Both the position numbers and the translations under genes were made by a program. DNA of 64,000 nt from Pedobacter aquae (GTDB lineage Bacteria; Bacteroidota; Bacteroidia; Sphingobacteriales; Sphingobacteriaceae), in assembly GCF_008195825.1 (NCBI RefSeq), contig NZ_CP043329.1, positions 496,001 to 560,000 on the forward strand. The letters run 5' to 3'. Positions 9,027 to 31,667 of the stretch are shown here, piece after piece. Under the pieces are notes generated by a model. It was not told where the DNA came from. It did not search any database and saw only the letters and a program-made list of their open reading frames with translations. Position 1 is the stretch's first letter. Each line of letters starts with the position of its first letter.

Positions 9027-9045
9027 GTTAAAGTTTATATTTTTC

Positions 9046-9071
9046 TTGTATCATCAAAATAAATATCTTCG
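9046..9071 (+). promoter_or_regulatory. Possible promoter of the outer-membrane barrel gene
   Basis: TTG at 9046-9048 and TATCTTCG at 9064-9071 resemble the Bacteroidota -33 and -7 boxes (consensus TAnnTTTG), although the spacing (15) is short. It lies 28 bases upstream of the start codon chosen at 9100. Confidence 0.35.
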
Positions 9072-9099
9072 CATCCAAAAATTAATAAACATCATATTT

Positions 9100-9867
9100 A
9101 TGAAGAAAAATTTACTTATTGCAATGATTATTGCTAGTGCTACTATTTTAAAAGCACAAACAACAACAGGTTTATCACCTAAGCCACCTATGGCTAAAAC
9201 AACTGATAGTTTAAAGAAAGACAGTGTTGCAAAACCAGCTGCGCCAAGTTTTTCTAAATTTAGGTTAGGTGTAAGCGGAGGTTTAAGTTTTTTATTGGCT
9301 AAAATTAGCGAACAAGTACCCGCAGAATCTAAAGACTATGTAAGAGATCTTAAATCTGGAGCTCATTTTAGTGTAGATGCGAGTTACTTTTGGAAAGAGC
9401 AAATTGGTTTAGGCTTCAAATACATCAATTTTACCTCTAGTAATGAAGGTAGAATTTTCTATGATGATGGATCAGGTTTTGGACCTTCTCTTCAATACTT
9501 AGAAGATAATATTACTACACAATTTTTTGGTCCGGTACTTTATAGCCGATACTATTCTAAAAATAGAAAAACAGAGTTGGTAACAGGCTTTGGTTTGGGT
9601 TATTTAGATTATAGAGATAATGGTAACCTAAATAATACTGATGTAAACATAAAAGGAGGTACAATTGGTCTAAATGCCGATATAAGCGCAGATTTTTATC
9701 TTACAAAAAATCTTTCTTTGGGTTTAGGTATTGGATTAGTTGGCGGTACACTTAGAAAGTTAGAAAGGCAAGTAGGCAATATGACTCAAACTATTGAACT
9801 AGAAGAAGGTAATTACGAAAGCCTAACCAGACTAGATATTTTCACCGGCTTAAGATGGAAATTATAA
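9100..9867 (+). CDS. Outer-membrane beta-barrel protein of unknown role
   Basis: A 255-residue protein with a signal peptide (MKKNLLIAMIIASATILKAQ), a Pro/Lys/Thr-rich linker, then alternating strands (FRLGVSGGLSFLLAKI, SVDASYFWKEQIGLGFKYINF, TELVTGFGLGYLDYRDN, LSLGLGIGLVGGTLRKL) ending in FTGLRWKL. This is the pattern of an 8-stranded porin-type barrel family common in Bacteroidota. The start is ATG at 9100, which gives a clean signal peptide; an upstream ATG at 9046 would precede it with non-signal residues. Function unknown. Confidence 0.75.
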   Translation: MKKNLLIAMIIASATILKAQTTTGLSPKPPMAKTTDSLKKDSVAKPAAPSFSKFRLGVSGGLSFLLAKISEQVPAESKDYVRDLKSGAHFSVDASYFWKEQIGLGFKYINFTSSNEGRIFYDDGSGFGPSLQYLEDNITTQFFGPVLYSRYYSKNRKTELVTGFGLGYLDYRDNGNLNNTDVNIKGGTIGLNADISADFYLTKNLSLGLGIGLVGGTLRKLERQVGNMTQTIELEEGNYESLTRLDIFTGLRWKL

Positions 9868-14685: not shown

Positions 14686-14711
14686 AGATTAAGGACATAA
14701 CGATTTAAGGG

Positions 14712-14745
14712 AAACCCGTAAAAAACATGTTTTTTACGGGTTTTT
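14712..14745 (+). terminator. Terminator after AMP nucleosidase
   Basis: Stem AAACCCGTAAAAAA pairs with TTTTTTACGGGTTT, loop CATG, then T residues. It isolates the upstream gene from the susC unit. Confidence 0.85.
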
Positions 14746-14776
14746 GCGTTTTTTTTAAAAATATATTTATAAATAT

Positions 14777-14806
14777 TTGCGTTTTTATGCAATAATTAGC
14801 ATATTT
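14777..14806 (+). promoter_or_regulatory. Candidate operator/promoter element of the susC unit
   Basis: TTGCG-N6-TGCAA (14777-14792) is followed 6 bases later by GCATATTT (14799-14806). The same arrangement occurs upstream of the phosphoesterase gene (19910-19949) with a gap of 16 instead of 6, a difference of one DNA turn. It is probably a regulator site next to a -7-like box. Confidence 0.55.
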
Positions 14807-14873
14807 ATAAATAAACACCTGTAAAAGTCAGTATAATAACGCAAAACTAATGTTTCACTTAAATTAAATTGGT

Positions 14874-17800
14874 ATGAAAAAAAGCCTACTTACGTTTCTT
14901 ATTGGGCTTCTCTTTATGACGCAAAACATATTTGCTCAGGAGAGAACAATATCTGGAACGGTTACATCTTCAGAGGATAACTTAACTCTGCCAGGTGTTG
15001 CTGTTCAGGTTAAAAGCTCGGGGCAAGGAACACAAACAAATGCAGATGGAAAATTTACATTAAGAGTAAAAGCCAACGATGTGTTGGTTATTTCTTATTT
15101 AGGTTATGTAAGCCAAGAAATCGTTATCAACAACCAAGTAAGTATCAATATTAGTTTAAAGCAAGATAATAAGGCTTTAAGCGAAGTGGTAGTTACTGCT
15201 TTAGGCGTAAAGCAAAACAAAAGGTCTTTGGGGTATTCTGTACAAGAAATTAGTAGTCAGGATTTAACGTCTACCAATCAAGCAAACCCACTAAACGCTT
15301 TAAAAGGTAAATTGGTTGGTGTGCAGATAACCGGTTCTGGTGGTGCTGCTGGTGCAGGTACAAGGGTACAGGTAAGAGGTATAAACTCTTTAAGTCCATC
15401 AGCAGATAATCAGCCTTTGTTTGTGATTGACGGTATTCCTGTTTCTAATGCTACAGATAATTTTGGGGCAGATAATTTTCAAACTCCTAATCGTATGGCC
15501 GATATTAATCCGGATGATATTGAGTCGATGACGATATTGAAGGGGCCGGCTGCATCTGTTCTTTATGGATTAAGAGCTGCAAATGGTGCAATTGTTATCA
15601 CTACTAAATCTGGTAAAAGCGGGCGTACAGAAATAAGCTATAGAACTTCTTATAGTTTTGACGATGTTGCAAACACGCCACCTATTCAGACAAAATATGG
15701 TAATGGTAATAATGGTGCTTTAGCGAGTACAGTTAATACTTGGGGACCTCCAATAGCAGAGGGGACACCTGTTTACAATCCTTATGATTTATTCTTTAAA
15801 ACAGGGCATCAATTACAAAATTCACTTACCTTAAGTGGTGGAAATGATAAGGCTAATTATTATACTTCGTTTTCAAATTTTGATCAAACTGGGGTAACTC
15901 CAAATTCAGAATACGGCAGAACATCAGTAAAAATGGCTGGCACTTACAGAGCATCTAATAAACTGAAATTTGATGCCTCTGCAAATTATATCAATTCTGG
16001 CGGAACTAATCCAAGAACTGGTATAAGTTCTGGAGCTATATTTTACTTAATGCGTCATACCAATACCGTTAATCCGGCTGATTATTTAAATCCTGATGGC
16101 TCGCAAAAAGTTTTTAATAGTGCTATTGATAATCCTTTCTATTTTGCCGAGAATTCTTTTTTAACAGATAAAGTCAATAGGATTATCGGGAACACCGGGA
16201 TTGATTACTCTCCTAATAGTTGGTTAAATTTTAATTATAAAGTTGGGGTAGACCATTACTCTGATTTTAGAAAATCATATAATGAAGTTGGCTTATTGAT
16301 ATCTAGGTTAGGCTCTATGTCTGAACAAAGAATTGGGTATTCAGAAGTTAATTCTAACTTTTTAGCAAGAGCAACAAAGCAAATTAATAAAGATTTATCT
16401 GCAACATTTTTGCTTGGACATTCTTTTACAGCAATTAAACGCTCAAGTTTAAATACAAGCGGTTCACAAGCTGTGGTACCAGGTTTAGAAAGTATAAATA
16501 ATTATGTTGTTTATAATAGCAGTAGCTCAAACCCGCAAAGGAATATTATAGGGGTATTTGGAGATTTAAAATTGGCTTATAAGAATTACTTATTTTTAGA
16601 TTTAACAGCTAGAAACGATTGGTCTTCTACCTTACCTAAAGATAATCGCTCGTTCTTTTATCCTTCAGCTAGTTTAGCATTTGTATTTACGGACGCTTTA
16701 AAGATGAGTGATAATTCCTTTTTATCATTTGGTAAGTTAAGAGCTTCTTATGCTGAAGTAGGTAAAGATGCAGATCCATACCAGATAGGAATATACTATT
16801 CAACTTTGCAAGCTTTTAATGGTGTAAGTGGTATCAATAGGAATATTACTTTTGGTTCAGAAGGCTTACGTCCTGAAAGAACAAAAGGTTTAGAATTTGG
16901 TACCGAGTTAAGATTTTTTAAAGATAAAATAACCTTAGACGCCAATTACGCTATAACCAATAGTGTTGACCAAATTGTGCCTGTACCAGTAAGTTATGCA
17001 TCTGGATTTGATTTATATGTAACCAATGCTGGGGAGATAAGAAATAATTCTTTAGAGTTATTAGTGAGTGCAAATTTAGTAGCTACAAAAGATTTTAAAT
17101 GGTCATTAAATGCAAATTGGTCTAGAACAAGAGGTCGCGTTTTATCAATGCCAGAAGGTGTAAACGAAATCACTTTTAATCCTGAGAGCCCTTGGAATAA
17201 ACAAATCATTAAAACAGGAGGAAGACCAGGAGATTGGTATGGTTGGCCATATATGAGAGTTAAAGATGACCCTACCGGAGAAAATAATGGTAAATTATTA
17301 ATAGGGGCTAATGGCTTTCCTATTGTGCCTCAGCCTTTATCGGAAAACTATTTAATAGGTAATGCTTTTCCAGATTGGATAGGCGGCTTAGGCTCTTCTT
17401 TTAGCTATAAAAATTTTGATTTTTCTTTCTTGTTTAATTTTAGAAAAGGAGGTTTTGTAAACGATATTTCTAAATGGCAGAGGTACATAACAGGTATAGG
17501 TGCAGAAACAGATATCAGAAATACAGTTGTAGTTTTTAATGGTGTTAAAAATGTTGGAACAGTTACGGCACCACAATATGTAACTAATGATACACAAGTA
17601 ACCATAGATCAAAATTTTTATAACAATGCTTTCCAGTACAGGTTGGCGCCAGAAAATAATGGTTTTCAAGATGGTTCTTGGATAAGATTGCAAAATGTGT
17701 CCTTAGGATATCGTTTACCAAAGTCAGTTTTGCCAAATTCAGGCTTTGTTAAATCGGCGTCTTTATCAGTTACGGCTAATAACTTATGGGTCACCACACC

Positions 17801-17921
17801 GTTTGTCGGTTTTGATCCAGAGTCTAGTACATACGGTGCGGCATCAAATGCTGTGGGTTATGTAGGTACAGGAATTCCAACAACTAGAAATATTTATTTA
17901 GGATTAAATGTTACATTCTAA
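14874..17921 (+). CDS. SusC/RagA family TonB-dependent outer-membrane transporter
   Basis: A TonB-linked outer-membrane channel that takes up oligosaccharides or other large nutrients with its SusD partner. It has a signal peptide (ending IFAQ), a carboxypeptidase-regulatory-like domain (TISGTVTSSEDNLTLPGVAVQVK), the SusC linker (LSEVVVTALG), a plug domain (VRGINSL, FVIDGIPVSN, ILKGPAASVLYG) and a 22-strand barrel ending in LGLNVTF. Length is 1015 residues, normal. SusD starts 10 bases after its stop. The substrate cannot be read from the sequence; downstream genes suggest cell-wall sugars. Confidence 0.95.
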   Translation: MKKSLLTFLIGLLFMTQNIFAQERTISGTVTSSEDNLTLPGVAVQVKSSGQGTQTNADGKFTLRVKANDVLVISYLGYVSQEIVINNQVSINISLKQDNKALSEVVVTALGVKQNKRSLGYSVQEISSQDLTSTNQANPLNALKGKLVGVQITGSGGAAGAGTRVQVRGINSLSPSADNQPLFVIDGIPVSNATDNFGADNFQTPNRMADINPDDIESMTILKGPAASVLYGLRAANGAIVITTKSGKSGRTEISYRTSYSFDDVANTPPIQTKYGNGNNGALASTVNTWGPPIAEGTPVYNPYDLFFKTGHQLQNSLTLSGGNDKANYYTSFSNFDQTGVTPNSEYGRTSVKMAGTYRASNKLKFDASANYINSGGTNPRTGISSGAIFYLMRHTNTVNPADYLNPDGSQKVFNSAIDNPFYFAENSFLTDKVNRIIGNTGIDYSPNSWLNFNYKVGVDHYSDFRKSYNEVGLLISRLGSMSEQRIGYSEVNSNFLARATKQINKDLSATFLLGHSFTAIKRSSLNTSGSQAVVPGLESINNYVVYNSSSSNPQRNIIGVFGDLKLAYKNYLFLDLTARNDWSSTLPKDNRSFFYPSASLAFVFTDALKMSDNSFLSFGKLRASYAEVGKDADPYQIGIYYSTLQAFNGVSGINRNITFGSEGLRPERTKGLEFGTELRFFKDKITLDANYAITNSVDQIVPVPVSYASGFDLYVTNAGEIRNNSLELLVSANLVATKDFKWSLNANWSRTRGRVLSMPEGVNEITFNPESPWNKQIIKTGGRPGDWYGWPYMRVKDDPTGENNGKLLIGANGFPIVPQPLSENYLIGNAFPDWIGGLGSSFSYKNFDFSFLFNFRKGGFVNDISKWQRYITGIGAETDIRNTVVVFNGVKNVGTVTAPQYVTNDTQVTIDQNFYNNAFQYRLAPENNGFQDGSWIRLQNVSLGYRLPKSVLPNSGFVKSASLSVTANNLWVTTPFVGFDPESSTYGAASNAVGYVGTGIPTTRNIYLGLNVTF

Positions 17922-17931
17922 CTTCAGACAC

Positions 17932-19395
17932 ATGAAAAGTAATAAAATAAAAATATTGTTTTCTGCCATTTTTGGAGCACTTTTCTTAAGTGCTTGTGAA
18001 AAACAACTCGATATTAATAGAGATCCGGATAGGTTAACCAGCGAGCAAGTAACAGAAGCAGGATTGTTACCATCGGGTATACAATATACTGCAACTTCAT
18101 TCTGGAATGCTGGGCAGTATGGTAATTATTATGTCCATTACCTTGCCGGAAACGCTAATCAGGCAGCAAATATAGATTCATACAATCCGTATGGTTTTGA
18201 TAATATATGGGAATCAGCTTATTTAAGAGCGATACCAACACTTAGAGATTTAATTTCAAGAGCAGAACGTAATAATCTTCCACATTATGCTGGAATAGGC
18301 AAGCTATTAATTGCACTTAATTTAATGCAAAGCACCGATATTTGGGGCGATATACCTTACTCAGAAGCTTTTAATCCAACGGTAACCTTAAGCCCTAAAT
18401 ATGATAGTCAAGAAGATATCTATTATAATACTTTAAAAGGTTTATTAGATGCGGCTATAGCCGATTTATCTCAGCCAGCTCCAACCATTGCTACTTCAAG
18501 AGTAGGAACTACTGATTTAGTTTATAAAGGTGATATAGCTAAATGGTTAAGAGCAGCTTATACAGCAAGAGGTAGGTATTATTTACATTTATCTAAGAAA
18601 AATGTTGCCAATAATGCTTTAGCTGTTGCCGATATAGATAGAGGATTTTCAGATAATACAGGCGCTTCAGACTTACAACTCTTTTATTCTACAGAGCGCA
18701 ATAGCCCCTGGTATACTGCTCTTTCTGTGGCAACTCCTGCTGCCAGATATGCAAGACCTTCTAAATATTTTGTTGACCTTCTTAATGGAAATTTATCTGG
18801 TGTTTATCCTGGTTTATTTGATCCAAGATTACCTTTATTGGTTGATAACGGTGGCGCTGCAACCTACATAGGCAGGCCTGTTGGTACACAGGATAATGAG
18901 CAAGGTGCTAACTTAGCAAATACTGATATTACAGTAAATACTTTTTATGGCAAAACAACATCAGCAGTACCAATTTTAACTTATACTGAAGGGCAATTTA
19001 TTAAAGCCGAAGCCTTGTTTAACACAGATAAGTCTGCTGCTTACACAGCTTATTTAAATGGGATAAGAAGCAGTATGCAAAAATTTGGTGTAAGTACAGC
19101 AAATATTGATTTATATGTGAATAATCCTTTAATTTCTAAAGGTTTTGTAGCATTAACACTTTCTGATATCATGTTACAAAAGTATATAGCTTTGTTCTTG
19201 CAGCTAGAAACCTGGACAGATATGAGAAGATACCAGTACGATACTTCAATTTATAGAGGTTTAAATAAACCTTTCAGAAATTTACTGGAAACACAATGGA
19301 TACAAAGAGGTAATTATCCTGATAACGAGCCAGGAAGGAATCCTAACGTTCCTAAGGTGGCAAATCAAGCAGTTAAATTATGGTTGTTTCAATAA
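17932..19395 (+). CDS. SusD/RagB family surface lipoprotein
   Basis: A glycan-binding lipoprotein that caps the SusC channel. The signal peptide ends in a lipobox (LFLSACEKQ, lipidated Cys22). The TPR-like helical fold is indicated by segments such as FDNIWESAYLRAIPTLRDLI and by NLMQSTDIWGDIPYSEAF, a family hallmark. It has 487 residues from ATG at 17932, 10 bases after susC; the frame is open further upstream, but the internal ATG gives the proper signal sequence. Confidence 0.93.
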   Translation: MKSNKIKILFSAIFGALFLSACEKQLDINRDPDRLTSEQVTEAGLLPSGIQYTATSFWNAGQYGNYYVHYLAGNANQAANIDSYNPYGFDNIWESAYLRAIPTLRDLISRAERNNLPHYAGIGKLLIALNLMQSTDIWGDIPYSEAFNPTVTLSPKYDSQEDIYYNTLKGLLDAAIADLSQPAPTIATSRVGTTDLVYKGDIAKWLRAAYTARGRYYLHLSKKNVANNALAVADIDRGFSDNTGASDLQLFYSTERNSPWYTALSVATPAARYARPSKYFVDLLNGNLSGVYPGLFDPRLPLLVDNGGAATYIGRPVGTQDNEQGANLANTDITVNTFYGKTTSAVPILTYTEGQFIKAEALFNTDKSAAYTAYLNGIRSSMQKFGVSTANIDLYVNNPLISKGFVALTLSDIMLQKYIALFLQLETWTDMRRYQYDTSIYRGLNKPFRNLLETQWIQRGNYPDNEPGRNPNVPKVANQAVKLWLFQ

Positions 19396-19406
19396 AATAT
19401 AAAATC

Positions 19407-19853
19407 ATGAAATTATATAAGTTTAAATATTTAATGATACTTTTTGCATTACCTCTATGCTTTACTGCATGTGAGAAAGATGCAGACCAATGGTTAAAAG
19501 ATAACACTACCATTATTGGAAAGTTGCCTGTTATAACAAGTCTTAGGATAACGCCTACACAAGCTAATAATAATGTAACTGCTGGCCAAAATGTAAGGTT
19601 AGACTTAAGATTCTGGTCTGATGACCCTATAGACAAAATTGAGCTAAAAGCTGCGGTAGGTACCAATCCAAGTCAGGTTGTTTCTACCACGCTTTATCAA
19701 AAGGCATATTCAAATATTTCTAAAACTGATTCCTTATTACTTAATTATACTGTTCCTAATGTTAGTGCAGGTACAGATATTAATATGGAAGTAGTAGTGG
19801 TTAATAAAAATACGTTAACCAAAAATTCTACTTTAAAGCTTACGGTTAGGTAA
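19407..19853 (+). CDS. Lipoprotein encoded after susD, unknown function
   Basis: A 148-residue lipoprotein (lipobox CFTACEKD, Cys22) with a single Ig-like beta-rich domain (LRITPTQANNNVTAGQNVRLDLRFW and matching strands to the C-terminus LKLTVR). It starts 11 bases after susD. Third genes in susCD units often encode surface lipoproteins that bind the substrate, and this may be one. I do not recognise a named family. The start is ATG at 19407; the upstream open frame overlaps susD. Confidence 0.75.
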   Translation: MKLYKFKYLMILFALPLCFTACEKDADQWLKDNTTIIGKLPVITSLRITPTQANNNVTAGQNVRLDLRFWSDDPIDKIELKAAVGTNPSQVVSTTLYQKAYSNISKTDSLLLNYTVPNVSAGTDINMEVVVVNKNTLTKNSTLKLTVR

Positions 19854-19862
19854 ATTCATAGA

Positions 19863-19899
19863 AGCCGGGTATGTATTAAATTATATCCGGTTTTTTTTA
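19863..19899 (+). terminator. Terminator between the susCD unit and the catabolic unit
   Basis: CCGGGTAT pairs with ATATCCGG (one G-U pair) around an AT loop and is followed by eight T residues. The position, ten bases after the lipoprotein gene, splits the locus into two transcripts. Confidence 0.8.
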
Positions 19900-19909
19900 G
19901 TATTAAAAA

Positions 19910-19949
19910 TTGCGCTTTTTTGCAATATTATTTTAAATAATGCATATTT
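19910..19949 (+). promoter_or_regulatory. Candidate operator/promoter element of the catabolic unit
   Basis: TTGCG-N6-TGCAA (19910-19925) with GCATATTT at 19942-19949. It matches the site upstream of susC. It ends 12 bases before the start codon, so the transcript leader would be very short. Confidence 0.55.
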
Positions 19950-19961
19950 CAACAAATCCAG

Positions 19962-21812
19962 ATGAAATATTTTTTAGTTATTCTACTATTTTTAGGGATA
20001 TTTAAGACTTACGCCCAACCCTTCAAATTTGCTCATGTTACAGATACCCATATTGGTAATGTGACAGGTGCTGATGATTTACGTAGAACTGTTAAGGATA
20101 TCAACCTTAATCCTGAACTTAAATTTGTTATCGTATCAGGCGATGTTACCGAGTTTGGCTCTGATGAAGAGCTAAAATTGGCTAAACAAATTTTAGATAG
20201 CTTAAATAAACCTTATTATGTAACTCCGGGTAACCATGATACCAATTGGTCTGAAAGTGGCGGAAATTCATTTCTAACCACGTTTAAATCGGGTACTTTT
20301 ACGTTCACCTATAACAGATTTAGGTTTGTGGGCACTGGTTCTGGTCCCTATATGAGAATGGGGCCTGGTCAAATCCCTAGAGAGGACATTGTTTGGTTAG
20401 ACTCTGTTTTAAATACCGTAAAAGGGAGAGAACCTGTCATCTACATCAATCATTATCCGCAAGATTCTTCTTTAAACAATTGGTATAGCGCTATTGATAT
20501 TTTAAAGCAAAAGAATATCCAGTTGATGTTATGCGGGCATGGGCATCAAAATAAAAAGTACGAGTTTGAAGGTATTCCAAACGTCATGGGGCGTTCTAAT
20601 TTAAGAGCTAAAGATTCTGTTGGAGGTTATAACATCATCGCTATAGCCAATAACGAAGCTACTTTTACCACCAAAAAGCCTTTAACAGCTATAGAAGAAA
20701 CCTGGTTAAGTGTAACACTTAAAGACCATAGTTTTCATCTTCAGCAAAGCACTTATCCACGGCCAAATTTTGCCGTAAATAAGCTGTATCCTCAAGTAAA
20801 AGTAAAATGGGAGTTTCAGGATGATAGCGATTTGGGTGTTGGAATAGCTCAATTTAAGCATTTATTTATCAGTGCAAACACTAAGGGAGAAATTTACGCT
20901 TTAACAAAAGCGAAGGGTCATAAACAATGGAAATTTCAAACGCAGGGAAAAATATACAGTACACCTTATGTTTATAAAAACAATGTTTTTGTAGGTTCTA
21001 CAGATGGTTATTTGTACTGTTTAAACGCTAAAACCGGAAATTTAAATTGGAAATTTAAAATCTCTAAAGCTATTTTGGCTAGCCCTTTAGTAGCAGATGA
21101 TAAAGTTTATTTTGGCTCATCAGACGGGCATTTTAGAGCTTTATCTGTAGCCAATGGAACTTTACTGTGGGATTATCCGCAAGTTAAAGGCTTTGTAGTT
21201 ACCAAGCCACTTTTGTACCAAGGGAAACTCTACTTTGGTAGCTGGGGCAATTATTTTTATGCTTTGGATGCCCAAACAGGTGAAGAAGCTTGGAAATGGA
21301 CAAACGGTTCTGCAAATAGGATGTACTCGCCGGCCGCATGTTGGCCTGTTGCTTCAAATGGTAAAGTTTTTATTGTAGCACCAGATAGGTATATGACCGC
21401 TTTTGATGCGGAAACAGGGGAGGTTATCTGGCGAGAGACTTTACCCAATAACAGAGTAAGAGAGTCTATGGGTTTATCTGAAGATCAACAATTGGTTTAT
21501 GCCAAAACGATGGATGGTAAAATCATAGGCGTTTCTACATCTTCAGAAAAATTTGATATAGTCTGGGAATCACCATTACAACTGCCTTACGAGTTAAATC
21601 CGGCTGCAATCACAACATATAAAAATCAAGTTTTTATTCCAACTCACTCTGGTTTAGCGGTAGCTCTTAACCAGCAAGATGGGGCTATAGTATGGAAGTA
21701 TAAAACATCAAATTGTTTAATAAATACCATCAAACCCATCAGTAGCAAAGCGGTAATGGTAAGTACAATGGATGGCAAAATCAGCTATCTAAAATATAAG
21801 CAGCATGATTAA
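19962..21812 (+). CDS. Exported calcineurin-like phosphoesterase fused to a PQQ-type beta-propeller
   Basis: A two-domain protein of 616 residues with a signal peptide (KTYAQ). Residues about 22-235 form a metallophosphoesterase with the metal motifs DTH (28-30), SGD (59-61), GNHD, NHYP and GHGH. Residues about 265-616 are repeats of the PQQ/BamB propeller type (DGYLYCLNAKTGNLNWKF, DGHFRALSVANGTLLWDY, YFYALDAQTGEEAWKW). Its stop overlaps the NagZ-like gene by 8 bases. The phosphate ester it acts on is unknown. Presence at the head of a cell-wall sugar unit suggests a periplasmic substrate such as a phosphorylated glycan or muropeptide; that is inference. Confidence 0.88.
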   Translation: MKYFLVILLFLGIFKTYAQPFKFAHVTDTHIGNVTGADDLRRTVKDINLNPELKFVIVSGDVTEFGSDEELKLAKQILDSLNKPYYVTPGNHDTNWSESGGNSFLTTFKSGTFTFTYNRFRFVGTGSGPYMRMGPGQIPREDIVWLDSVLNTVKGREPVIYINHYPQDSSLNNWYSAIDILKQKNIQLMLCGHGHQNKKYEFEGIPNVMGRSNLRAKDSVGGYNIIAIANNEATFTTKKPLTAIEETWLSVTLKDHSFHLQQSTYPRPNFAVNKLYPQVKVKWEFQDDSDLGVGIAQFKHLFISANTKGEIYALTKAKGHKQWKFQTQGKIYSTPYVYKNNVFVGSTDGYLYCLNAKTGNLNWKFKISKAILASPLVADDKVYFGSSDGHFRALSVANGTLLWDYPQVKGFVVTKPLLYQGKLYFGSWGNYFYALDAQTGEEAWKWTNGSANRMYSPAACWPVASNGKVFIVAPDRYMTAFDAETGEVIWRETLPNNRVRESMGLSEDQQLVYAKTMDGKIIGVSTSSEKFDIVWESPLQLPYELNPAAITTYKNQVFIPTHSGLAVALNQQDGAIVWKYKTSNCLINTIKPISSKAVMVSTMDGKISYLKYKQHD

Positions 21813-23508
21813 AAAAATGATGATATTCATCCTGATTTTACTATCAGGTAGTATGCAGGCACAAGAGTTTTTACAGGTTTCTGAAGCTTCACAAAAATGG
21901 GCAGATAGCGTTTATAAAAAGCTGAACAGAAGAGAGAAAATTGCACAATTAATGGTGCTGAGGTTGTCAGAAAAAAGTGGCGATTCTGCCATTTTTTATA
22001 CCAAACAAATATCAAAGTACATCCAAAAATATAACATAGGGTCTATTTGTCTTTTTCAAGGGAAGGCCATTCAGCAAGCTATTACGGTTAACCAGTTGCA
22101 GAAACAAGCCCCTACACCTCTAATGGTTTGTATTGATGGCGAAACCGGTGTAGGCATGCGTTTTAATGACATAATGCCTTTCCCAAATCAGTTAACTTTA
22201 GGGGCTGTTGCCGATGTGAATTTAGCTTTTCAAATGGGGCAAGCGATGGGCGTACAATGTAAAAGAGCTGGTATACAGGTTAATTATGCTCCGGTTGTTG
22301 ATATCAATAATAATCCTGCTAATCCGGTTATTAATGTAAGATCTTTTGGAGAGAGTAAATATAAAGTAGCCAAATTTGGCGTAGCACTTACCCAAGGTAT
22401 GCAACAAGCCGGAGTGATGGCTTGCGCTAAACATTTTCCAGGTCATGGTGATGTAAGTGTTGATTCTCATTATGATTTACCGGTAATTCCGAAATCTAAA
22501 TTACAATTGGATTCTTTAGAGATTTATCCTTTTAAAGAGATGATAAAAGCAGGCGTTGGTAGCATGATGATGGGACATTTATACATCCCAGCTATTGATG
22601 CTACAGCAAACCAAGCTTCATCTTTATCTAAAACAAATGTGACCAATTTGGTAAGAGATGAGCTAGGCTTTAAAGGGATAAATTTTACCGATGCCTTAGA
22701 AATGAAAGGCGTTGCTAAGTTTTATCCGCAAGGACAAGCAGCCACACAATCTTTAATTGCCGGTAATGATATGCTATGCCTTCCTGGCGATATTAAAGGG
22801 AGCATCAAAAGGATTAGAAAAGTTATCCGAAAAAAAGATTTAAGTTGGGATGATATACACGCTAAAGTAAATCGTGTTTTAATTGCCAAATACAATTTAG
22901 GGCTTCATAAAACACCAATTATTGATACTACAAATTTAGTGGCAGAGCTAAATGAAGTGGTTGTTCCTTTAAAAAAAGAAATCTATAAACAAGCTATAAC
23001 AGTGCTTAAACAAACAGATTCTACTATAAATCAGCTCCATAAAAAGCAAAAAATAGCATTTGTAGGTGTTGGCCTAAAGGTAGAAAATCATTTTTCTGAG
23101 CTGCTTAAAAATACATATCAAGCTAATAGTTATTGTTTGGATTATCAGGCATCTGCACAAGAGGCCAATGTATTACTTCAACATCTAAAAGGAAATTACG
23201 ATGTCGTTATTGTAGGTGTTCATCAATACACTAAATATCCAGCTAATAATTTCGGAATAAGTTATACTGCAATTGATTTTATTAAGCAGGTAAATCTGCA
23301 AAATAAAGCTATTACTATTGCTTTTGGTACTCCTTATGCCATCAGTAATTTTACCAATTTAAGCAATTTAGTAGCTGCTTATGAAGATGATAAATTGATG
23401 CATGAAGCTGTATTGAGCTTTTTGAAGGGTGAAATAAAAGCCAATGGTACTTTACCTGTTAGTATAGGTAATAGTTTTCTATTTGGTTATGGAATTGCAA
23501 ATAAATAA
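21805..23508 (+). CDS. nagZ: Exported GH3 beta-N-acetylhexosaminidase, NagZ-like
   Basis: A glycoside hydrolase family 3 enzyme with the NagZ catalytic loop KHFPGHGDVSVDSH (residues 209-222; acid/base His-Asp dyad at 220/222) and the nucleophile region FTDALEM. It cleaves terminal GlcNAc from GlcNAc-MurNAc in its characterised relatives. Unlike the cytoplasmic E. coli NagZ it has a signal peptide (MIKKMMIFILILLSGSMQAQ) and an extra C-terminal domain of about 190 residues, as in secreted Bacillus NagZ. Length is 567. It overlaps the upstream gene by 8 bases and sits directly before murQ. Confidence 0.88.
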   Translation: MIKKMMIFILILLSGSMQAQEFLQVSEASQKWADSVYKKLNRREKIAQLMVLRLSEKSGDSAIFYTKQISKYIQKYNIGSICLFQGKAIQQAITVNQLQKQAPTPLMVCIDGETGVGMRFNDIMPFPNQLTLGAVADVNLAFQMGQAMGVQCKRAGIQVNYAPVVDINNNPANPVINVRSFGESKYKVAKFGVALTQGMQQAGVMACAKHFPGHGDVSVDSHYDLPVIPKSKLQLDSLEIYPFKEMIKAGVGSMMMGHLYIPAIDATANQASSLSKTNVTNLVRDELGFKGINFTDALEMKGVAKFYPQGQAATQSLIAGNDMLCLPGDIKGSIKRIRKVIRKKDLSWDDIHAKVNRVLIAKYNLGLHKTPIIDTTNLVAELNEVVVPLKKEIYKQAITVLKQTDSTINQLHKKQKIAFVGVGLKVENHFSELLKNTYQANSYCLDYQASAQEANVLLQHLKGNYDVVIVGVHQYTKYPANNFGISYTAIDFIKQVNLQNKAITIAFGTPYAISNFTNLSNLVAAYEDDKLMHEAVLSFLKGEIKANGTLPVSIGNSFLFGYGIANK

Positions 23509-23533
23509 GAAGAGAGCATATAAAAATAGAATA

Positions 23534-24346
23534 ATGGAAATTGTAACAGAGAAAGAATCTAACTACCACGACTTAGATAAAATGAGCGTTGGAGAAATTT
23601 TATATAATATCAATAAAGAAGACCAAACAGTTGCAGATGCTGTTGCTAAAGCTATTCCTCAACTAGAGCCACTAGCTAGCATCACGGCAGAGAAAATGAA
23701 AAAAGGCGGTCGCTTATTTTATATAGGTGCTGGTACTAGTGGCAGGTTAGGCGTGTTAGACGCATCAGAATGCCCACCTACTTTTGGTGTCCCATTTGAT
23801 TGGATTGTTGGTATTATAGCAGGTGGAGATACTGCCATACGCAAGGCCGTAGAGTTTGCAGAAGATGATACGGAGCAAGCCTGGAAAGACTTACAAGAAT
23901 TTGATATTACTGAAGACGATGTGGTGGTAGGTATTGCCGCTTCTGGTACCACGCCTTATGTTATAGGGGGCTTAAATACTGCAAATGCGCATGGTATTGT
24001 AACGGGTTGTGTAGTTTGTAATGTAGGTAGTCCGGTGGCAGCAGAAGCACAATACCCAGTAGAAGTAGTGGTTGGTCCCGAGTTTGTTTCTGGCTCTACC
24101 CGTATGAAATCTGGTACAGCACAAAAACTTATCCTCAATATGTTAAGTACTAGTGTGATGATTCAATTAGGCCGTGTTAAAGGCAATAAAATGGTGGATA
24201 TGCAATTAACTAATCATAAATTATTTAGCAGAGGCATTAACATGATTATGCAAGAAACAGGTAAAGACCACGATATTGCAACGCAATTGCTAGAGAAATA
24301 TGGTAGCGTAAGAAAAGCCATTGAAAGTGTTCTTATTAACCATTAA
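23534..24346 (+). CDS. murQ: N-acetylmuramic acid 6-phosphate etherase
   Basis: Cytoplasmic etherase that splits MurNAc-6-phosphate to GlcNAc-6-phosphate and D-lactate. SIS-domain motifs are GAGTSGRLGVLDASECPPTF (phosphosugar site with catalytic Glu), GIAASGTTPYVIGGL and GSTRMKSGTAQKLILNMLST. The 270-residue length from ATG at 23534 is usual; the frame is open upstream through the nagZ end, but the internal start fits the family. It is located 25 bases after nagZ and 14 before the symporter. The required MurNAc kinase is not seen here. Confidence 0.95.
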   Translation: MEIVTEKESNYHDLDKMSVGEILYNINKEDQTVADAVAKAIPQLEPLASITAEKMKKGGRLFYIGAGTSGRLGVLDASECPPTFGVPFDWIVGIIAGGDTAIRKAVEFAEDDTEQAWKDLQEFDITEDDVVVGIAASGTTPYVIGGLNTANAHGIVTGCVVCNVGSPVAAEAQYPVEVVVGPEFVSGSTRMKSGTAQKLILNMLSTSVMIQLGRVKGNKMVDMQLTNHKLFSRGINMIMQETGKDHDIATQLLEKYGSVRKAIESVLINH

Positions 24347-24360
24347 ATCTTAACATATAA

Positions 24361-25838
24361 ATGGAGCCCATTACGCTATTGTCTTTTTTAATCATCTACT
24401 TTTTGGTACTTATTGGGGTGTCTTATTTCACCTCCAAAGGTTCATCAGATAACGCTAGCTTTTTTATTGCTAATAGAAATTCTAAATGGTATTTTGTCGC
24501 GTTCGGGATGATTGGGACAGCACTTTCTGGTGTTACTTTCATTTCTGTTCCTGGCGCCGTAGATAAAAGCGCATTTGGCTATTTTCAATTTGTTTTGGGT
24601 AATGCTGTGGGCTTTGTTTTAATAGCTACGGTTCTCTTACCTTTGTACTATAGGTTAAATATCATCTCTATTTATTCTTATTTAGAGAGAAGGTTAGGCT
24701 TCTGGAGCTATAAATCTGGTGCTATGATTTTCCTAATTTCTCGTACCATAGGCTCTGCTTTTAGGTTGTATTTGGTAGCTATAGTATTACAGAAATTTAT
24801 TTTTGATGCCTGGAATGTCCCTTTTTGGATAACCATCATCATTTGTTTATTACTCATTTGGTCTTATACCTTTAAAGGCGGTTTAAAAACCATCATCATT
24901 ACAGATACTTTGCAAACGGTATTCTTGCTTTCGTCTGTAGTATTGTCTATCTATTTCATCGCTAAAAGTTTAAATCTTGATATTGCAGCCACTATAGAAA
25001 CGGTTAAAACCAGTACGTATTCGCAAATATTCTTTTGGGATGATTTCGTTGGCAACAAGAATCATTTCATCAAACAGTTTCTAGGTGGTTTATTTATCAC
25101 CATTGCCATGACAGGTTTAGACCAAGATTTGATGCAGAAAAACCTGAGCTGCAAAAACATAGGTGAAGCACAAAAGAATATGCTTACCTTTACAGGGATA
25201 TTTGTACTTATCAATATCTTTTTTTAAGCGTTGGTGCCTTACTTTATACTTTTGCTGCGGCAAAAGGTATTGATGTAAAAGCATTGGGCACTCCAGATCA
25301 TCTTTTTCCTGAAATCGCTTTAAATTATTTGGGTGTAGTACCTGCCATTGTTTTCATGCTGGGTTTAACAGCTGCTACATTTGCCACAACAGATTCTGCT
25401 TTAACAGCCCTTACCACTTCTTTTTGTGTAGACTTTTTAGGTTTTGATAAAAAGCAAGACCAAAACTCGTCTAAGCTGGTCAATATCAGACATTATGTTC
25501 ATATTGTATTTTCTGTATTGATTTTTCTTGTGGTGTTGATTTTTAAAATCATCAATGATGATTCTGTAGTAAACGCTATTTTTAAAGCTGCTGGATACAC
25601 TTACGGACCTCTGTTAGGATTATTTGCCTTCGGGATGTTAACTTATAGAAATGTAAAAGATAGTTTAGTTCCTTTTATTTGTATTTTATCCCCAATTTTG
25701 TCTTTTGTTATTGATGCTAATTCTTTAAGCTGGTTTAATTATTCTGTAGGTTTCGAGTTAATTATCATAAACGCAACCATAACTTTTTTATGCTTGTTAG
25801 CCATTAGTAATCAAAGAGATAAAGTGCTGAAATTTTAG
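24361..25838 (+). pseudogene. Sodium:solute symporter (SSS family), frameshifted
   Basis: A member of the SSS family with about 13 membrane helices, probable sodium-coupled importer of a sugar, sugar acid or peptide. The first part runs to TAA at 25227; the second part continues in another frame (LSVGALLYTFAAAKGIDVKALG...). The break is a T7 run at 25219-25225: adding one T restores a 492-residue protein with conserved junction IFFLSVGAL. The signature TGLDQDLMQKNLSCK precedes the break and TTDSALTALTTSFCVD follows it. The gene lies between murQ and the D-lactate oxidase, so MurNAc or a related cell-wall product is a likely cargo. Sequencing error and real inactivation are both possible. Confidence 0.82.
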
Positions 25839-25853
25839 ATTAAAAATATTTTT

Positions 25854-28682
25854 ATGCAACATATAGGTGAGTTACTACTGTCAGTTCTTCCAAAAGAAAG
25901 AATTAAAACCCGGCTGATAGATTTAGTAGCTTATGCTTCAGATGCAGGTTTTTACCATTTACAACCCAAAGCCGTTGTACAGCCTGTTTCTGTTGATGAG
26001 GTAATTACGCTTTTTCAGTTTTCCTTAAAATATCAAATTCCTTTAACTTTTAGAACTGGCGGTACCAGTTTATCTGGCCAATCTATTACAGATGGTATTC
26101 TGGTAGATTTAAGTCAGTATTGGGATAAGGTTGTTGTAGAAAATGAGGGAAAACAGGTAAGGGTTCAGCCAGGAGTAATTGGTGCTAAGGTTAATCATAC
26201 CTTACAAGGGTACGGTAAAAAAATGGGTCCTGATCCGTCAAGCATTAATTCTGCTATGATGGGAGGGATACTCTCTAACAACTCTAGCGGGATGTGTTGC
26301 GGGGTAAAACATAATTCTTACCATACCACTAAATACATACGTTTTGTGTTGCCAAATGGGCTAGTTTTCTCAACCGAGCATCAGCAAGATTATCCAAGGT
26401 TTAAAGAAGAGTGTCCGGCTATTTATCAGCAAATCATCGATTTAAAAGCGCAAATTACTGCTGATGAAACTATCCGTAATTTCATCAGAGCTAAATATCA
26501 AACCAAAAATACGGTGGGCTATTCTGTAAATGCTTTTATAGATTATGATGAACCTTTAGACATTTTAGCACATTTATTAATTGGTGCCGAAGGAACTTTA
26601 GGCTTTATAGCCGAAGCAGTTTTAGAAACTTTAGACGATTATAAAGAGAAATCAACCTCTTTACTTTACTTTCCAGATATTTATGAAGCCTGTAAGGCCA
26701 TTATCCCGTTAACGGTTTCTGGAGCAGAAGCGGTAGAACTGATGGATAGAGCTTCTTTACGTTCTATAGAACATATTAAGGGTGTGCCCGATATTTTAAA
26801 ATCTTTACCAGAAAGTGCATCGGCTTTATTGATAGAATATCAGGCAAATACGCAGGAAGATTTACAATTAAAAATCAACCAGTTTTTTGTGCTAGTGCCA
26901 GATTTAAAGCTTTTAAACAGTGCCGAGTTTACTAACGACCCTTACCAGCAAGACTTTTTATGGAAGTTACGTAAAGGTATGTTCCCATCTGTTGGTGCGG
27001 TAAGAGCTAGTGGTTCTACGGTTATTTTAGAAGATATTGCTGTCCCGGTAGTACATTTAGGCGATGCCATTTCTGATTTGCAAGTACTTTTCAAGCAATA
27101 TCAGTATGAAAACGCTATTATTTTTGGTCATGCTAAAGATGGTAATATCCATTTCGTGGTCACACAATCTTTTAATACACCAGAAGAAATAAAGCGTTAT
27201 GATAGCTTTTTAAAAGATGTTGTAAATCTAGTTATCCATAAATATCAAGGCACTTTAAAAGCAGAACATGGTACAGGTAGAAACATGGTTCCATTTGTAG
27301 CTACCGAGTGGGGAGAAGATATTTACCAAGTAATGAAGGCTTTAAAAGAGCTGATAGACCCGCAAAACTTATTAAATCCGGGTGTAATTATCAACGCTAA
27401 TAAACAAGCACATATACAGCATTTGAAAGATTTACCTTCTGTAGAAGAAGAGGTAGATAAATGTATGGAGTGCGGTTATTGCGAATACATTTGCCCGAGT
27501 AGAAATATTACTTTAACTCCTCGCCAACGTATTGTAGTAAGGCGTGAGCTGGTTAACTTACGTGATAAAAGAGAATATCAAAAGCATCAGGAATTATTGC
27601 AGCAGTTTCAATACGATGGTATGGATACCTGTGCTGTTGATGGTTTATGCGCTACTGCTTGCCCGGTAGAAATTAATACCGGCGATTTAATTAAACGACT
27701 GAGAAGAGAAAGTCATAACAGGTTTGCCAATAACACAGCACTGTGGGTAGCCAAAAACTTTGCTTTGGCAGAAACTTTTGCTGGTTTAGGGGTAAAAGTT
27801 GGTGAGGGTTTTAATGCCGCTTTTGGTAAAAGTAGTATGCGTAACTTTACCCAAGCTATAAAAAAGCAAATCCCGAGTTTTCCTTTATGGTCTAATCAAT
27901 TAAAATCTACTGGAAAAACTGCTATTTTTAAGCAAAAAGAGGATTTAAGCGGTGTAGTTTATGCACCTACTTGTATCTCCAGAACGATGGGAGGTAGCGT
28001 AGAAAAAGGTAAAAAGAATATCATCTCTACCATGGCTGCTATTTCAGAAAAAGCAGGTTTAAGTTTTATCATTCCTGAAGAGATTGATGGTTTATGTTGC
28101 GGACAAATTTTTTCTTCTAAAGGTTATCAGGATGCTTACCAATATACCAGTAATAAAACCATAGAAAAATTATGGGCAGCAACAGATGGTGGAAGATTAC
28201 CTGTAATGCTGGATATAAGTTCTTGTACTTATACTTTACAGGGATGTAGAAGAGTGCTCACAGAAGCTAATAAATTAAAATTCGATGCCCTCAAAATCAT
28301 TGATAGTATTGATTACATAGCCGATTATATTATCCCAAGGTTAAACAACATCAATAAGAAAAGAAATATTGTATTACACCCTGTTTGCTCTTTAAAGAAG
28401 ATGGGCTTACAGCAAAAGTTTATAAAAGTAGCGCAGTTTTTTGCCGATGAAGTAACCGTACCTTTTAGCGCAGGTTGTTGCGGTATGGCAGGCGATCGTG
28501 GTTTTCTTTTTCCAGAATTAACCGCATCTGCAACTTTACCAGAAGCCCAAGAAGTTAATGCTTGTGGTACTTTTGATGGTTACTATTCTAGCGGAAAAAC
28601 TTGCGAAATAGCCATTTCTGAAGCAGTAGGGCATAACTATGAATCTATTGTGTATTTGGTTGATGAGTGTTTGGGGGAGTAG
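25854..28682 (+). CDS. FAD-linked, Fe-S D-lactate dehydrogenase-type oxidoreductase
   Basis: A 942-residue fusion of an FAD-binding subunit (RTGGTSLSGQSITDGILVD; PDPSS; C-lobe motifs GHAKDGNIHF and AEHGTGRN) and an iron-sulfur subunit with two 4Fe-4S motifs (CMECGYCEYICP, CAVDGLCATACP) and CCG-type segments (CCGQIF, CCGMAGD). This architecture oxidises D-2-hydroxyacids such as D-lactate or glycolate and passes electrons to the membrane quinone pool or similar. Because MurQ produces D-lactate, D-lactate is the likely substrate here. It starts 15 bases after the symporter and ends the unit. Confidence 0.9.
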   Translation: MQHIGELLLSVLPKERIKTRLIDLVAYASDAGFYHLQPKAVVQPVSVDEVITLFQFSLKYQIPLTFRTGGTSLSGQSITDGILVDLSQYWDKVVVENEGKQVRVQPGVIGAKVNHTLQGYGKKMGPDPSSINSAMMGGILSNNSSGMCCGVKHNSYHTTKYIRFVLPNGLVFSTEHQQDYPRFKEECPAIYQQIIDLKAQITADETIRNFIRAKYQTKNTVGYSVNAFIDYDEPLDILAHLLIGAEGTLGFIAEAVLETLDDYKEKSTSLLYFPDIYEACKAIIPLTVSGAEAVELMDRASLRSIEHIKGVPDILKSLPESASALLIEYQANTQEDLQLKINQFFVLVPDLKLLNSAEFTNDPYQQDFLWKLRKGMFPSVGAVRASGSTVILEDIAVPVVHLGDAISDLQVLFKQYQYENAIIFGHAKDGNIHFVVTQSFNTPEEIKRYDSFLKDVVNLVIHKYQGTLKAEHGTGRNMVPFVATEWGEDIYQVMKALKELIDPQNLLNPGVIINANKQAHIQHLKDLPSVEEEVDKCMECGYCEYICPSRNITLTPRQRIVVRRELVNLRDKREYQKHQELLQQFQYDGMDTCAVDGLCATACPVEINTGDLIKRLRRESHNRFANNTALWVAKNFALAETFAGLGVKVGEGFNAAFGKSSMRNFTQAIKKQIPSFPLWSNQLKSTGKTAIFKQKEDLSGVVYAPTCISRTMGGSVEKGKKNIISTMAAISEKAGLSFIIPEEIDGLCCGQIFSSKGYQDAYQYTSNKTIEKLWAATDGGRLPVMLDISSCTYTLQGCRRVLTEANKLKFDALKIIDSIDYIADYIIPRLNNINKKRNIVLHPVCSLKKMGLQQKFIKVAQFFADEVTVPFSAGCCGMAGDRGFLFPELTASATLPEAQEVNACGTFDGYYSSGKTCEIAISEAVGHNYESIVYLVDECLGE

Positions 28683-28735: not shown

Positions 28736-28775
28736 ATATGGGGACTTATCTTGTGCTCGTTTGCAACGAGTGCTT

Positions 28776-29227
28776 CATATGGTTTTACGATTTCATCGTT
28801 TTTAACGCCTAAGGTTTGATGTTTTTTAACCACAAAGTTCGCAAAGGACACGGAGTTGGGCGGTGAGTTTTATTGATTGATTTTTGTATGAGAGAATGAT
28901 TGATTTTGTATCAGTTGCTAGTTTTCGGTTTCCTGTTACCCGTTGTGTCTATTTTGGACGTTTTAAAGGTTTTTGAATTTTGAATTTTTCCTTTTGAATT
29001 TTTCTTTCATATGGTTTTACGATTTCATCGTTTTTAACGCCTAAGGTTTGATGTTTTTTAACCACAAAGTTCGCAAAGGACACGGAGTTGGGCGGTGAGT
29101 TTTATTGATTGATTTTTGTATGAGAGAATGATTGATTTTGTATCAGTTGCTAGTTTTCGGTTTCCTGTTACCCGTTGTGTCTATTTTGGACGTTTTAAAG
29201 GTTTTTGAATTTTGAATTTTTCCTTTT
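28776..29227 (+). repeat. Perfect 220-base direct duplication in a noncoding spacer
   Basis: 28776-28995 is repeated exactly at 29008-29227, and a third partial copy starts at 29281. The unit joins a CATATGGTTTTACGATTTC head, an ACCACAAAGTTCGCAAAGGA segment and a tail related, in reverse complement, to the 100-base repeats at 3205-3503. The segment TTGCAACGAGTGCTT precedes both the first and the third copies. It occupies most of the 704-base gap 28683-29386. I see no coding potential. Confidence 0.9.
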
Positions 29228-30816: not shown

Positions 30817-30867
30817 AAATATAGCAATATTTTAAAAACATGTATTTAAGAAGGACAGATTTTAGCT

Positions 30868-31611
30868 TTAAATGACTTGTACGCTTTTTGCGTAATCTGT
30901 TAACAAGCTATCCTGAGCGTTTAAATCTGTAATAAGATAATCGATACTATTGAGGTTACAAACTTTAAGCTTTTGTATGGAGTTTAATTTCTCTGCAATA
31001 CTTACAATAGCGGTTTTTTGTGCCGATTTAATCATGGCTTTTTTTACTTGTACCACTTCCCAATCAGAATCTGTAATACCTTCTTCTAAAGAAACGCTAT
31101 TGGCACCTAATAAGCATAAATCAACTTTAATATCATTAAGCTCGCTCACAACTTTAGAACCTATGCTTATTTGTGCGTTTCTAGAAAGTTGTCCGCCTAA
31201 TAAAATAACTTGCAAATTTGGTTTTTCTGCTAGTTCTAATGCAACTAAAGGACTAATAGTGAAAAAGGTACAAGTTAAATGATCAGGAATCATCCTTACC
31301 AGTTCTATCATGGTGGTACCGCCGCTGGCTAATAAAGTCATGCCGTTTTGGATGAGCGATAATGCCTTCCTAGAAATCTCTTTTTTAGCATCTTTAGCAT
31401 AAGCATCTACCTGTTGGAAAGGGTAATGAAAAGATTTTGATAAAGCACCGCCATGTACTTTTAAAATCTTACCACTTTCTGCTAGTTCGTTTAAATCTCT
31501 TCTTATGGTATCTTCAGAAACTACCAATTGTTCGCTCAAATCAGACGATAAAACTTTGTTGTGTAAGTTTATTTGTTTGAGGATATAGGCATGGCGTTCT
31601 TCTTTTAACAT
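30868..31611 (-). CDS. DeoR/GlpR family transcriptional regulator
   Basis: A 247-residue regulator with an N-terminal winged helix (MLKEERHAYILKQINLH, LVVSEDTIRRDLNELAESGKILKVHGGAL) and a C-terminal DeoR sensor domain that resembles phosphosugar isomerases (TLLASGGTTMIELVRMIP, LLGGQLSRNAQISIGS, LLGANSVSLEEGITD). Such repressors respond to phosphorylated sugars. I chose ATG at 31611, the usual start of this family, over an ATG seven codons upstream. Confidence 0.9.
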   Translation of the reverse strand: MLKEERHAYILKQINLHNKVLSSDLSEQLVVSEDTIRRDLNELAESGKILKVHGGALSKSFHYPFQQVDAYAKDAKKEISRKALSLIQNGMTLLASGGTTMIELVRMIPDHLTCTFFTISPLVALELAEKPNLQVILLGGQLSRNAQISIGSKVVSELNDIKVDLCLLGANSVSLEEGITDSDWEVVQVKKAMIKSAQKTAIVSIAEKLNSIQKLKVCNLNSIDYLITDLNAQDSLLTDYAKSVQVI

Positions 31612-31667
31612 ATTTTTAGATTTAACAAACAAATGTATTTAAATGGGACTTAAAACTCAAATTGTAT

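Follow-up and report, generated by a model that had tools for sequence, protein, structure and literature searches.

A tightly spaced run of genes on the chromosome of Pedobacter aquae is, judged from its sequence, very probably a polysaccharide utilization locus (PUL) for peptidoglycan and its sugars N-acetylmuramic acid (MurNAc) and N-acetylglucosamine (GlcNAc). The window that we analyzed is a stretch of 64,000 nucleotides, positions 496001-560000 of the single contig of the 3.85 Mb genome (RefSeq assembly GCF_008195825.1; G000:C1 in the handles used below, where G marks genomes and L named loci). An original prediction had assigned to this run the use of peptidoglycan fragments. Comparison with related genomes supports that role, through wall markers in the MurQ-linked loci of relatives and through the predicted substrate pocket of an oxidase.

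All eight genes of the original prediction, encoding SusC, SusD, a lipoprotein, a phosphoesterase/propeller fusion, a glycoside hydrolase of family GH3, MurQ, an SSS symporter and a flavin adenine dinucleotide (FAD)/iron-sulfur (Fe-S) oxidase, were recovered by open reading frame (ORF) calling and hidden Markov model (HMM) matches as one tight plus-strand run at 14874-28682 of the window (Table 1). The intergenic gaps from SusC to the oxidase are -14, -16, 108, -8, 19, 14, 56 and 15 bp, the gap of 56 bp lying inside the symporter gene, which is broken here. As in other PULs, SusC and SusD homologues are adjacent, with a 14-bp overlap, and a carbohydrate-active enzyme is linked to them, namely the GH3 protein of this run and the GH18 and GHL10 proteins of the related genome G018. 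The GH3 protein is of the exported NagZ kind: it can be aligned to B. subtilis NagZ/YbbD (3bmx) over the KHFPGHGD...DSH block, with the Asp-His dyad, and around the TDAL nucleophile, and it has a signal-peptide-like start (signal peptides and lipoboxes of the run were judged by eye). MurQ, the etherase of MurNAc catabolic operons, acts on MurNAc 6-phosphate to give GlcNAc 6-phosphate and D-lactate. Among the ten window proteins scanned by HMM we found no RpiR-type MurR regulator and no phosphotransferase system (PTS) protein MurP, the search for MurP being confined to these ten proteins.

Table 1 Features of the locus and its flanks in window coordinates
Feature	Coordinates	Strand	Evidence or remark
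SusC/RagA TonB-dependent outer-membrane transporter	14874..17921	+	TIGR04056 634.8 bits, cut-off 368
SusD-like surface lipoprotein	17908..19395	+	PF12771, 7.9e-51
157-aa lipoprotein-like ORF	19380..19853	+	no Pfam/NCBIfam match
Exported metallophosphoesterase + BamB-like PQQ-type propeller fusion	19962..21812	+	PF00149 2e-18; PF13570 5.7e-61
Exported GH3 N-acetylglucosaminidase, NagZ kind	21805..23508	+	PF00933 1.7e-76
MurQ, N-acetylmuramic acid 6-phosphate etherase	about 23528..24346	+	TIGR00274 319.1 bits (cut-off 302); NF003915 380 bits (cut-off 168)
SSS symporter, N-terminal piece	24361..25227	+	PF00474/TIGR00813; frame broken
SSS symporter, C-terminal piece	25284..25838	+	PF00474/TIGR00813; different frame
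FAD/Fe-S oxidoreductase, predicted D-lactate (D-2-hydroxyacid) dehydrogenase	25854..28682	+	PF01565, PF02913, Fe-S dicluster
Intrinsic-terminator-like hairpin	14710..14745	+	16 pairs; 1 found vs 0.1 expected
DUF4861 gene	29387-30763		flank of locus
DeoR-family regulator	30868..31632	-	outside the span reported earlier

The loci of relatives carry the argument for a wall-directed role. We took the best 80 of a larger number of symporter loci found with an alignment (A1) of 15 symporters against genome contigs and labelled the ORFs within +/-10 kb of the symporter, where available, by blastp against seed proteins. Part of the labels are weak (27-41% identity), and the seeds were themselves drawn from loci of this kind, although all 80 were scanned alike; some named L loci duplicate loci cited by a G handle. 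MurQ lies beside the symporter in 38 of the 80 loci. Wall markers (NamZ, NLPC, MLE, GHL10) are present in 26 of these 38 as against one of the 42 without MurQ, and that one (L069) has the other genes of the locus and no called MurQ. The 38 MurQ-linked loci hold a SusC homologue in 23 cases, GHL10 in 10 (plus nine of a second seed), SusD in 10, GH3 in 12, an epimerase type in five and NlpC/P60 in four. NamZ, an exo-muramidase whose co-occurrence with such loci the original prediction had suggested seeking, is found in nine. Where MurQ and the symporter lie within 3 kb of each other, they share a strand in 58 of 58 labelled loci, with a median gap of 30 bp, as do symporter and oxidase in 26 of 26 labelled pairs; the gene run is therefore not a product of chance.

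Of 151 genomes sampled from the family, 15, belonging to five genera, have contiguous MurQ, symporter and oxidase genes, and so do seven Pontibacter loci from a different family, the Hymenobacteraceae. Taken as a share, the combination is as uncommon as had been supposed, yet it recurs well beyond this species. In Arcticibacter eurypsychrophilus (L060; L159 is apparently the same record) the genes follow each other in the order NlpC/P60, an enolase-superfamily protein, a class A beta-lactamase-like protein, NamZ, MurQ, symporter, oxidase and a divergent DeoR gene. We take the enolase-superfamily protein of these loci to be of the L-Ala-D/L-Glu epimerase type. The order in G066 is propeller, NlpC/P60, epimerase type, GH3+beta-lactamase fusion, beta-lactamase-like protein, MurQ, symporter and oxidase; AmiE also has a beta-lactamase fold. 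In G018, the closest relative with the SusD of the window, the locus measures about 27 kb and occupies the same site, adjoining AMP nucleosidase; there, a type IX-tailed GHL10 protein, a type IX-tailed protein, SusC, SusD, a 254-aa ORF, a PKD protein, GH18 and GHL10 precede the orthologues of the window genes. In G097 (L198 1418-2875), two tandem copies of a 187-aa ORF lie between AMP nucleosidase and the extended locus, and one copy is present in G018. Many MurQ-symporter loci of Sphingobacterium and Parapedobacter (L084-L108) continue with ORFs of about 271 and 660-690 aa instead of the oxidase; in L088 these encode a nucleoside-phosphorylase-type protein and a Porin_10 protein.

DigH is presumably a GHL10 member. 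In C. difficile, the GHL10 domain of Cwp19 acts as a lytic transglycosylase on peptidoglycan (PMC6016235), and DigH degrades denuded wall glycans (PMC12288456). The locus might instead serve sugars derived from chitin or other GlcNAc polymers, with MurQ and the oxidase incidental or kept for self-recycling only. GH3 N-acetylglucosaminidases do act on chitooligosaccharides, as in the case of RmNag3, a GH3+beta-lactamase fusion that was assayed on these substrates although others have linked it to peptidoglycan turnover (PMC6987092), and labels compatible with chitin- or chitosan-like glycans (GH9 in 17, polysaccharide deacetylase in 17, GH18 in five and GH20 in one of the 38 loci) are present in relatives. 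We regard this alternative as very improbable, since the established substrate of MurQ is MurNAc 6-phosphate, the NamZ, NlpC/P60, epimerase-type and GHL10 genes of 26 of the 38 loci have no obvious part to play in the use of chitin, and an additional MurQ match lies elsewhere in 10 of the 15 genomes that have MurQ, symporter and oxidase contiguous, so that the locus copy is extra.

Whether the locus feeds the cell or recovers its own turnover fragments is a separate matter. In B. subtilis, S. aureus and E. coli, MurQ pathways serve to recycle the cell's own wall (PMC5061867), and in the five remaining genomes (G066, G076, G041, G020, G055) the MurQ of the locus is the only one reported by the search, so it must also recycle there. 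We nevertheless consider a pure recycling function improbable, given that the exported enzymes, the TonB-dependent SusCD and the type IX-tailed GHL10 of G018 point outwards. The locus is also patchy, MurQ of at least 77% identity being found in five of 18 genomes of the genus, each time beside a symporter, and the P. aquae genome has another MurQ (G000:2555968, 69% identity), with a third MurQ match also reported. A MurQ tree, which included only five unlinked rows, gave no clean split of linked and unlinked copies.

SusC is 90% identical to the G018 copy and 73% identical to that of G046 over the 442 residues available, and the 157-aa ORF adjoins the same SusCD in both (80% and 49%, respectively). 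At a threshold of E at most 1e-80, the SusD subfamily was found in seven of the 151 family genomes, and all seven have contiguous MurQ, symporter and oxidase genes (lists compared by hand). With our own genome excluded, six of six SusD genomes fall within the 14 of 150 that have the core; the probability would be 2e-7 under independence of the genomes, an assumption that does not hold. SusD lies inside the run in G000, G018 and G046; in G058, G076 and G108 it shares contig and strand with MurQ at a distance of 16-19 kb, and in G006 it is on another contig. The other eight of the 15 core genomes have no member of this SusD subfamily, so SusD implies the core and not the reverse.

The oxidase profile A2 matched 57 of the 151 family genomes at 1e-60, with 49 matches near full length (at least 1376 bits). 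Compared by hand, 15 of these 49 lie directly beside the symporter and MurQ genes, with short gaps; the other 34 were not seen beside MurQ, a count that includes G085, where MurQ and the symporter are on a short separate contig. The oxidase had been called dedicated: its association with MurQ holds, its exclusivity does not. In a tree of 44 oxidase rows the linked/solo label needs 7 changes; shuffled labels need 14.4, and none of 500 shuffles went as low as 7. The data set counts L069 as solo and includes identical rows, near-copies and related rows that favour such clustering.

The assignment of the oxidase to the D-lactate dehydrogenase type, made in the original prediction, gains from comparison with mouse LDHD, whose metal/carboxylate residues are R347/H398/H405/E442/H443 and whose subsite B is hydrophobic (PMC10589216). 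The equivalents R373/H426/H433/E471/H472 are present in 44 of 44 oxidase rows, and the subsite B residues F377/V390/L392/V435, hydrophobic as in LDHD, in 25 of 25 MurQ-linked rows; the pairwise alignment behind this mapping is weak and has a gap close to V390/L392, and Val101 and Lys401 fall outside the mapping. By the same weak mapping, the protein has Val at the position of Asn443 and Phe at that of Thr390 of D2HGDH, whose pocket also contains Lys401, and Val where GlcD has Tyr351 (PMC10589216). The pocket is thus predicted to favour D-lactate over glycolate or D-2-hydroxyglutarate. Apart from two single exceptions, solo oxidases have the same pocket residues; linked copies are thus not distinguished by their pocket. 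Two other assignments were rejected: a YdiJ-type D-2-hydroxyglutarate enzyme (NF049975 206.1 bits vs a cut-off of 1350, the best stretch being in the N-terminal half; pocket different) and a GlcD-type glycolate enzyme (scores below the NCBIfam cut-offs; pocket residues different by the mapping). The 942-aa protein is fused to a GlpC/GlcF-like Fe-S region and likely passes electrons to a respiratory-chain acceptor; its overall similarity to LDHD is weak (E 4e-19). The genome encodes one other FAD-oxidase_C protein, of 464 aa. In G046, a lactate permease gene adjoins a 43% oxidase paralogue, itself in two ORFs.

These data bear on the possibility that the PUL lies next to the oxidase by happenstance, the oxidase being a general D-2-hydroxyacid dehydrogenase resident at this site. 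The 34 copies apart from MurQ, the identical pocket of solo copies and the site in G084 described below speak for it. We think it unlikely, as the three-gene order recurs with short gaps in five genera and again in Pontibacter, the labels cluster in the tree, and D-lactate is the by-product of MurQ.

G084 offers a nearly empty site. Its AMP nucleosidase is 98% identical and its flanking DNA 89-94% identical to those of the window, and it lacks both window positions 14693-25838 and the DeoR segment (about 30849-31662) while keeping the oxidase and the DUF4861 gene. The joint absence of two separate segments ties DeoR to the block from SusC to the symporter and indicates that the oxidase can stand alone. 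G108, which is outside the G084 group in the oxidase tree, holds the locus at the same site, which makes loss in G084 the simpler reading. In G091, G113, G103 and G065, no such locus genes were found in the ~7 kb available beyond AMP nucleosidase, and the sequences of G054 and G040 end at the AMP nucleosidase site and are uninformative there. A DeoR gene occurs within 10 kb in 11 of the 38 MurQ-symporter loci. The DeoR regulator, outside the span reported earlier, probably belongs to the locus and is likely its phospho-sugar-responsive regulator. The DUF4861 gene was rejected as a member: it persists in G084 without the PUL and is present in 0 of the 38 MurQ-linked named loci. Between the oxidase and this gene (28774-29227) lie a two-copy 232-bp tandem repeat (100% matches) and TAGTTGGT-type repeats, and at the left end the hairpin sets the run apart from the AMP nucleosidase/clpXP genes that lie upstream. 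In L063, L064, L069-L072 (Pontibacter) and L074 (Cesiribacter), the DeoR gene is adjoined by a second GH3+beta-lactamase fusion and by a ~390-aa ORF, which in L064 encodes an HGSNAT-type transmembrane acetyltransferase (PF07786).

The symporter had been listed as part of the run, where it is indeed present, split into two ORFs by a frameshift in a T run (near 25219-25226). Close relatives have unbroken copies, and each piece matches the intact 492-aa G018 protein at 98% identity; the break must therefore be recent, unless it is an error of the assembly. The locus may be decaying in this strain, with a symporter that no longer works and without the left half that is present in G018. Besides the frame break, the longer loci at the same site in G018 and G097 and the lone oxidase there in G084 suit such a course. 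We consider this less likely than not: the two pieces are still close to the intact relative, the other reported frames are open, an assembly error in the T run would look alike, and an intact symporter paralogue (65% identical to the G018 protein) lies beside RecR-like and LOG-type genes at L165 7571-9088 (G000:1391570-1393088; also placed at G000:1391597). Symporter identity was rejected as proof of MurNAc uptake, 42 of the 80 symporter loci being without MurQ. In L104, the one MurQ-less symporter locus checked with Pfam, the next genes encode RecR and a LOG-type protein.

The phosphoesterase-propeller is present in 27 of the 38 MurQ-linked loci. Its metal-ligand residues are identical in 26 of 26 aligned rows, and the binuclear set D-x-H, GD, GNHD, H and GHxH of class III phosphodiesterases is complete. 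The GNHD motif is typical of phosphodiesterases. The full-length model (predicted local distance difference test, pLDDT, 84.0) matches BamB and other propellers, which stood at the top of the whole-protein fold search (mostly BamB among the best 50 matches listed); the phosphoesterase domain was therefore modelled alone (pLDDT 85.4). The closest fold was then glycerophosphodiesterase GpdQ (3d03, E 3.4e-14, template modelling score 0.69, 20% identity, root-mean-square deviation 5.6), followed by Rv0805 and by purple acid phosphatases, the latter being monoesterases. GpdQ/Rv0805-type phosphodiesterases are also closest by sequence, at 1e-8 over part of the domain. The GpdQ-like modelled domain suggests phosphodiesterase activity. 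Within a wall-sugar locus, our guess is that it would remove teichoic-acid-type links to MurNAc.

The rest of the route is encoded elsewhere in the genome. The original prediction had found no MurNAc kinase; none is in the locus, but the conclusion that it is missing was rejected, as three BadF/MurK-type matches, all under the Pfam cut-off, are present elsewhere. The best, at about 1327.3-1328.2 kb of G000 (L001), matches the T. forsythia MurK chains 8oqw/8ow9 at 1e-67 (phmmer). The MurK residues that reportedly accommodate the lactyl group are at positions S133/P134/L135 and T94 (PMC10465942). At these positions the best kinase has D133/S134/L135 and S94, together with S69; it has no bulky Glu or His at 134 and an acidic residue at 133. 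The second match (L167 5872-6729) has His at the T94 position, and the third (L167, about 8586-9442) is split between frames near a T run. A NamZ gene lies about 25 kb upstream of the locus, NagA (over the cut-off) is unlinked and adjoined by a NagB-type gene, and one GHL10 protein is encoded, also unlinked.

Several observations weigh against a peptidoglycan PUL. The symporter is frame-broken in this assembly, and similar symporters (64-82% identity) stand in 40 of the 80 loci at a MurQ-less site with a next gene of 230-258 aa, the pattern of another conserved site that accounts for 40 of the 42 MurQ-less loci. The oxidase is present in only 10 of the 38 MurQ-linked named loci, and most near-full-length copies are elsewhere. 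At the corresponding site G097, with a MurQ of 98% identity, carries this core together with a different SusCD and no window-type SusD, so the SusCD of the window is exchangeable. The G108 locus has no DeoR gene in the 4.7 kb available past the oxidase, the kinase carries Asp at the S133 position of MurK, and some relatives' loci hold the enzymes compatible with chitin-like glycans listed above.

The peptidoglycan reading yields the following route. SusC, SusD and the small lipoprotein would bring wall glycan fragments into the periplasm, where the exported NagZ-type GH3, by its family and catalytic residues, would remove GlcNAc, the exported GpdQ-like phosphodiesterase-propeller may take off a phosphodiester substituent, and the distant NamZ may release MurNAc. 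The symporter would import MurNAc, the unlinked MurK-type kinase would convert it to MurNAc 6-phosphate, and MurQ, by the established reaction of its family, would supply GlcNAc 6-phosphate and D-lactate. Unlinked NagA/NagB-type enzymes would carry GlcNAc 6-phosphate to fructose 6-phosphate, and the oxidase, judging from its residues and context, would turn D-lactate into pyruvate with electrons passing towards the respiratory chain. The DeoR protein would probably keep the locus repressed as long as no phospho-sugar is formed. A bolder version, which we hold to be unlikely, is a PUL for the Gram-positive walls of other bacteria. In it, the phosphodiesterase-propeller would strip teichoic-acid-type phosphodiesters from MurNAc to clear the way for NagZ and NamZ, the symporter would represent a new class of MurNAc transporter, and through the oxidase the lactyl side chain would serve as a dedicated fuel for respiration.

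In many habitats, dead bacteria supply carbon and nitrogen. If the peptidoglycan reading is true, the locus would provide candidate genes for feeding on wall material in Bacteroidota, with a candidate MurNAc transporter of the SSS family, a putative oxidase for the D-lactate derived from MurNAc and a phosphodiesterase-propeller that is widespread in such loci. Engineered C. glutamicum grown on MurNAc accumulated lactate (PMC6165865). The use of MurNAc and cell-wall sugars is itself already known from other bacteria. In searches of open-licence papers, we found no description of a SusCD locus for peptidoglycan, nor of one for MurNAc that combines an SSS symporter with a D-lactate oxidase of its own.

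Among known systems, GpdQ and Rv0805 share with the locus phosphoesterase the closest solved fold, a sequence match and the full metal-ligand set, but the locus protein is exported and fused to a BamB-like propeller. LDHD-type D-lactate dehydrogenases share the five catalytic residues and the hydrophobic subsite B with the locus oxidase, which differs in its fused Fe-S region. The B. subtilis gene ybbC is presumably namZ. It belongs to the cluster murQ-murR-murP-amiE-nagZ-ybbC (PMC5061867), which has MurQ and exported NagZ in common with the P. aquae locus, and NamZ and beta-lactamase-fold proteins in common with the loci of relatives. Here, SusCD and an SSS symporter stand in place of the PTS protein MurP and DeoR in place of MurR, the kinase is separate and unlinked, and a D-lactate oxidase and a phosphodiesterase-propeller are added. 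The MurTKQ operon of Tannerella forsythia, likewise from Bacteroidota, resembles the P. aquae system in its non-PTS uptake, MurK-type kinase and MurQ (PMC10465942, PMC5790795); its transporter Tf_MurT is described as of the major-facilitator type (PMC5790795) where P. aquae has an SSS symporter, its kinase is linked where that of P. aquae is not, and the parts of these papers available to us mention neither SusCD nor a D-lactate oxidase for that operon. With SusCD PULs the locus shares the SusC-SusD pair, an exported glycosidase, co-directional genes and a nearby regulator. It differs from them in that the run also covers the handling of MurNAc and its lactyl group at the inner membrane and in the cytosol, in its DeoR-type regulator and in its predicted target, peptidoglycan.

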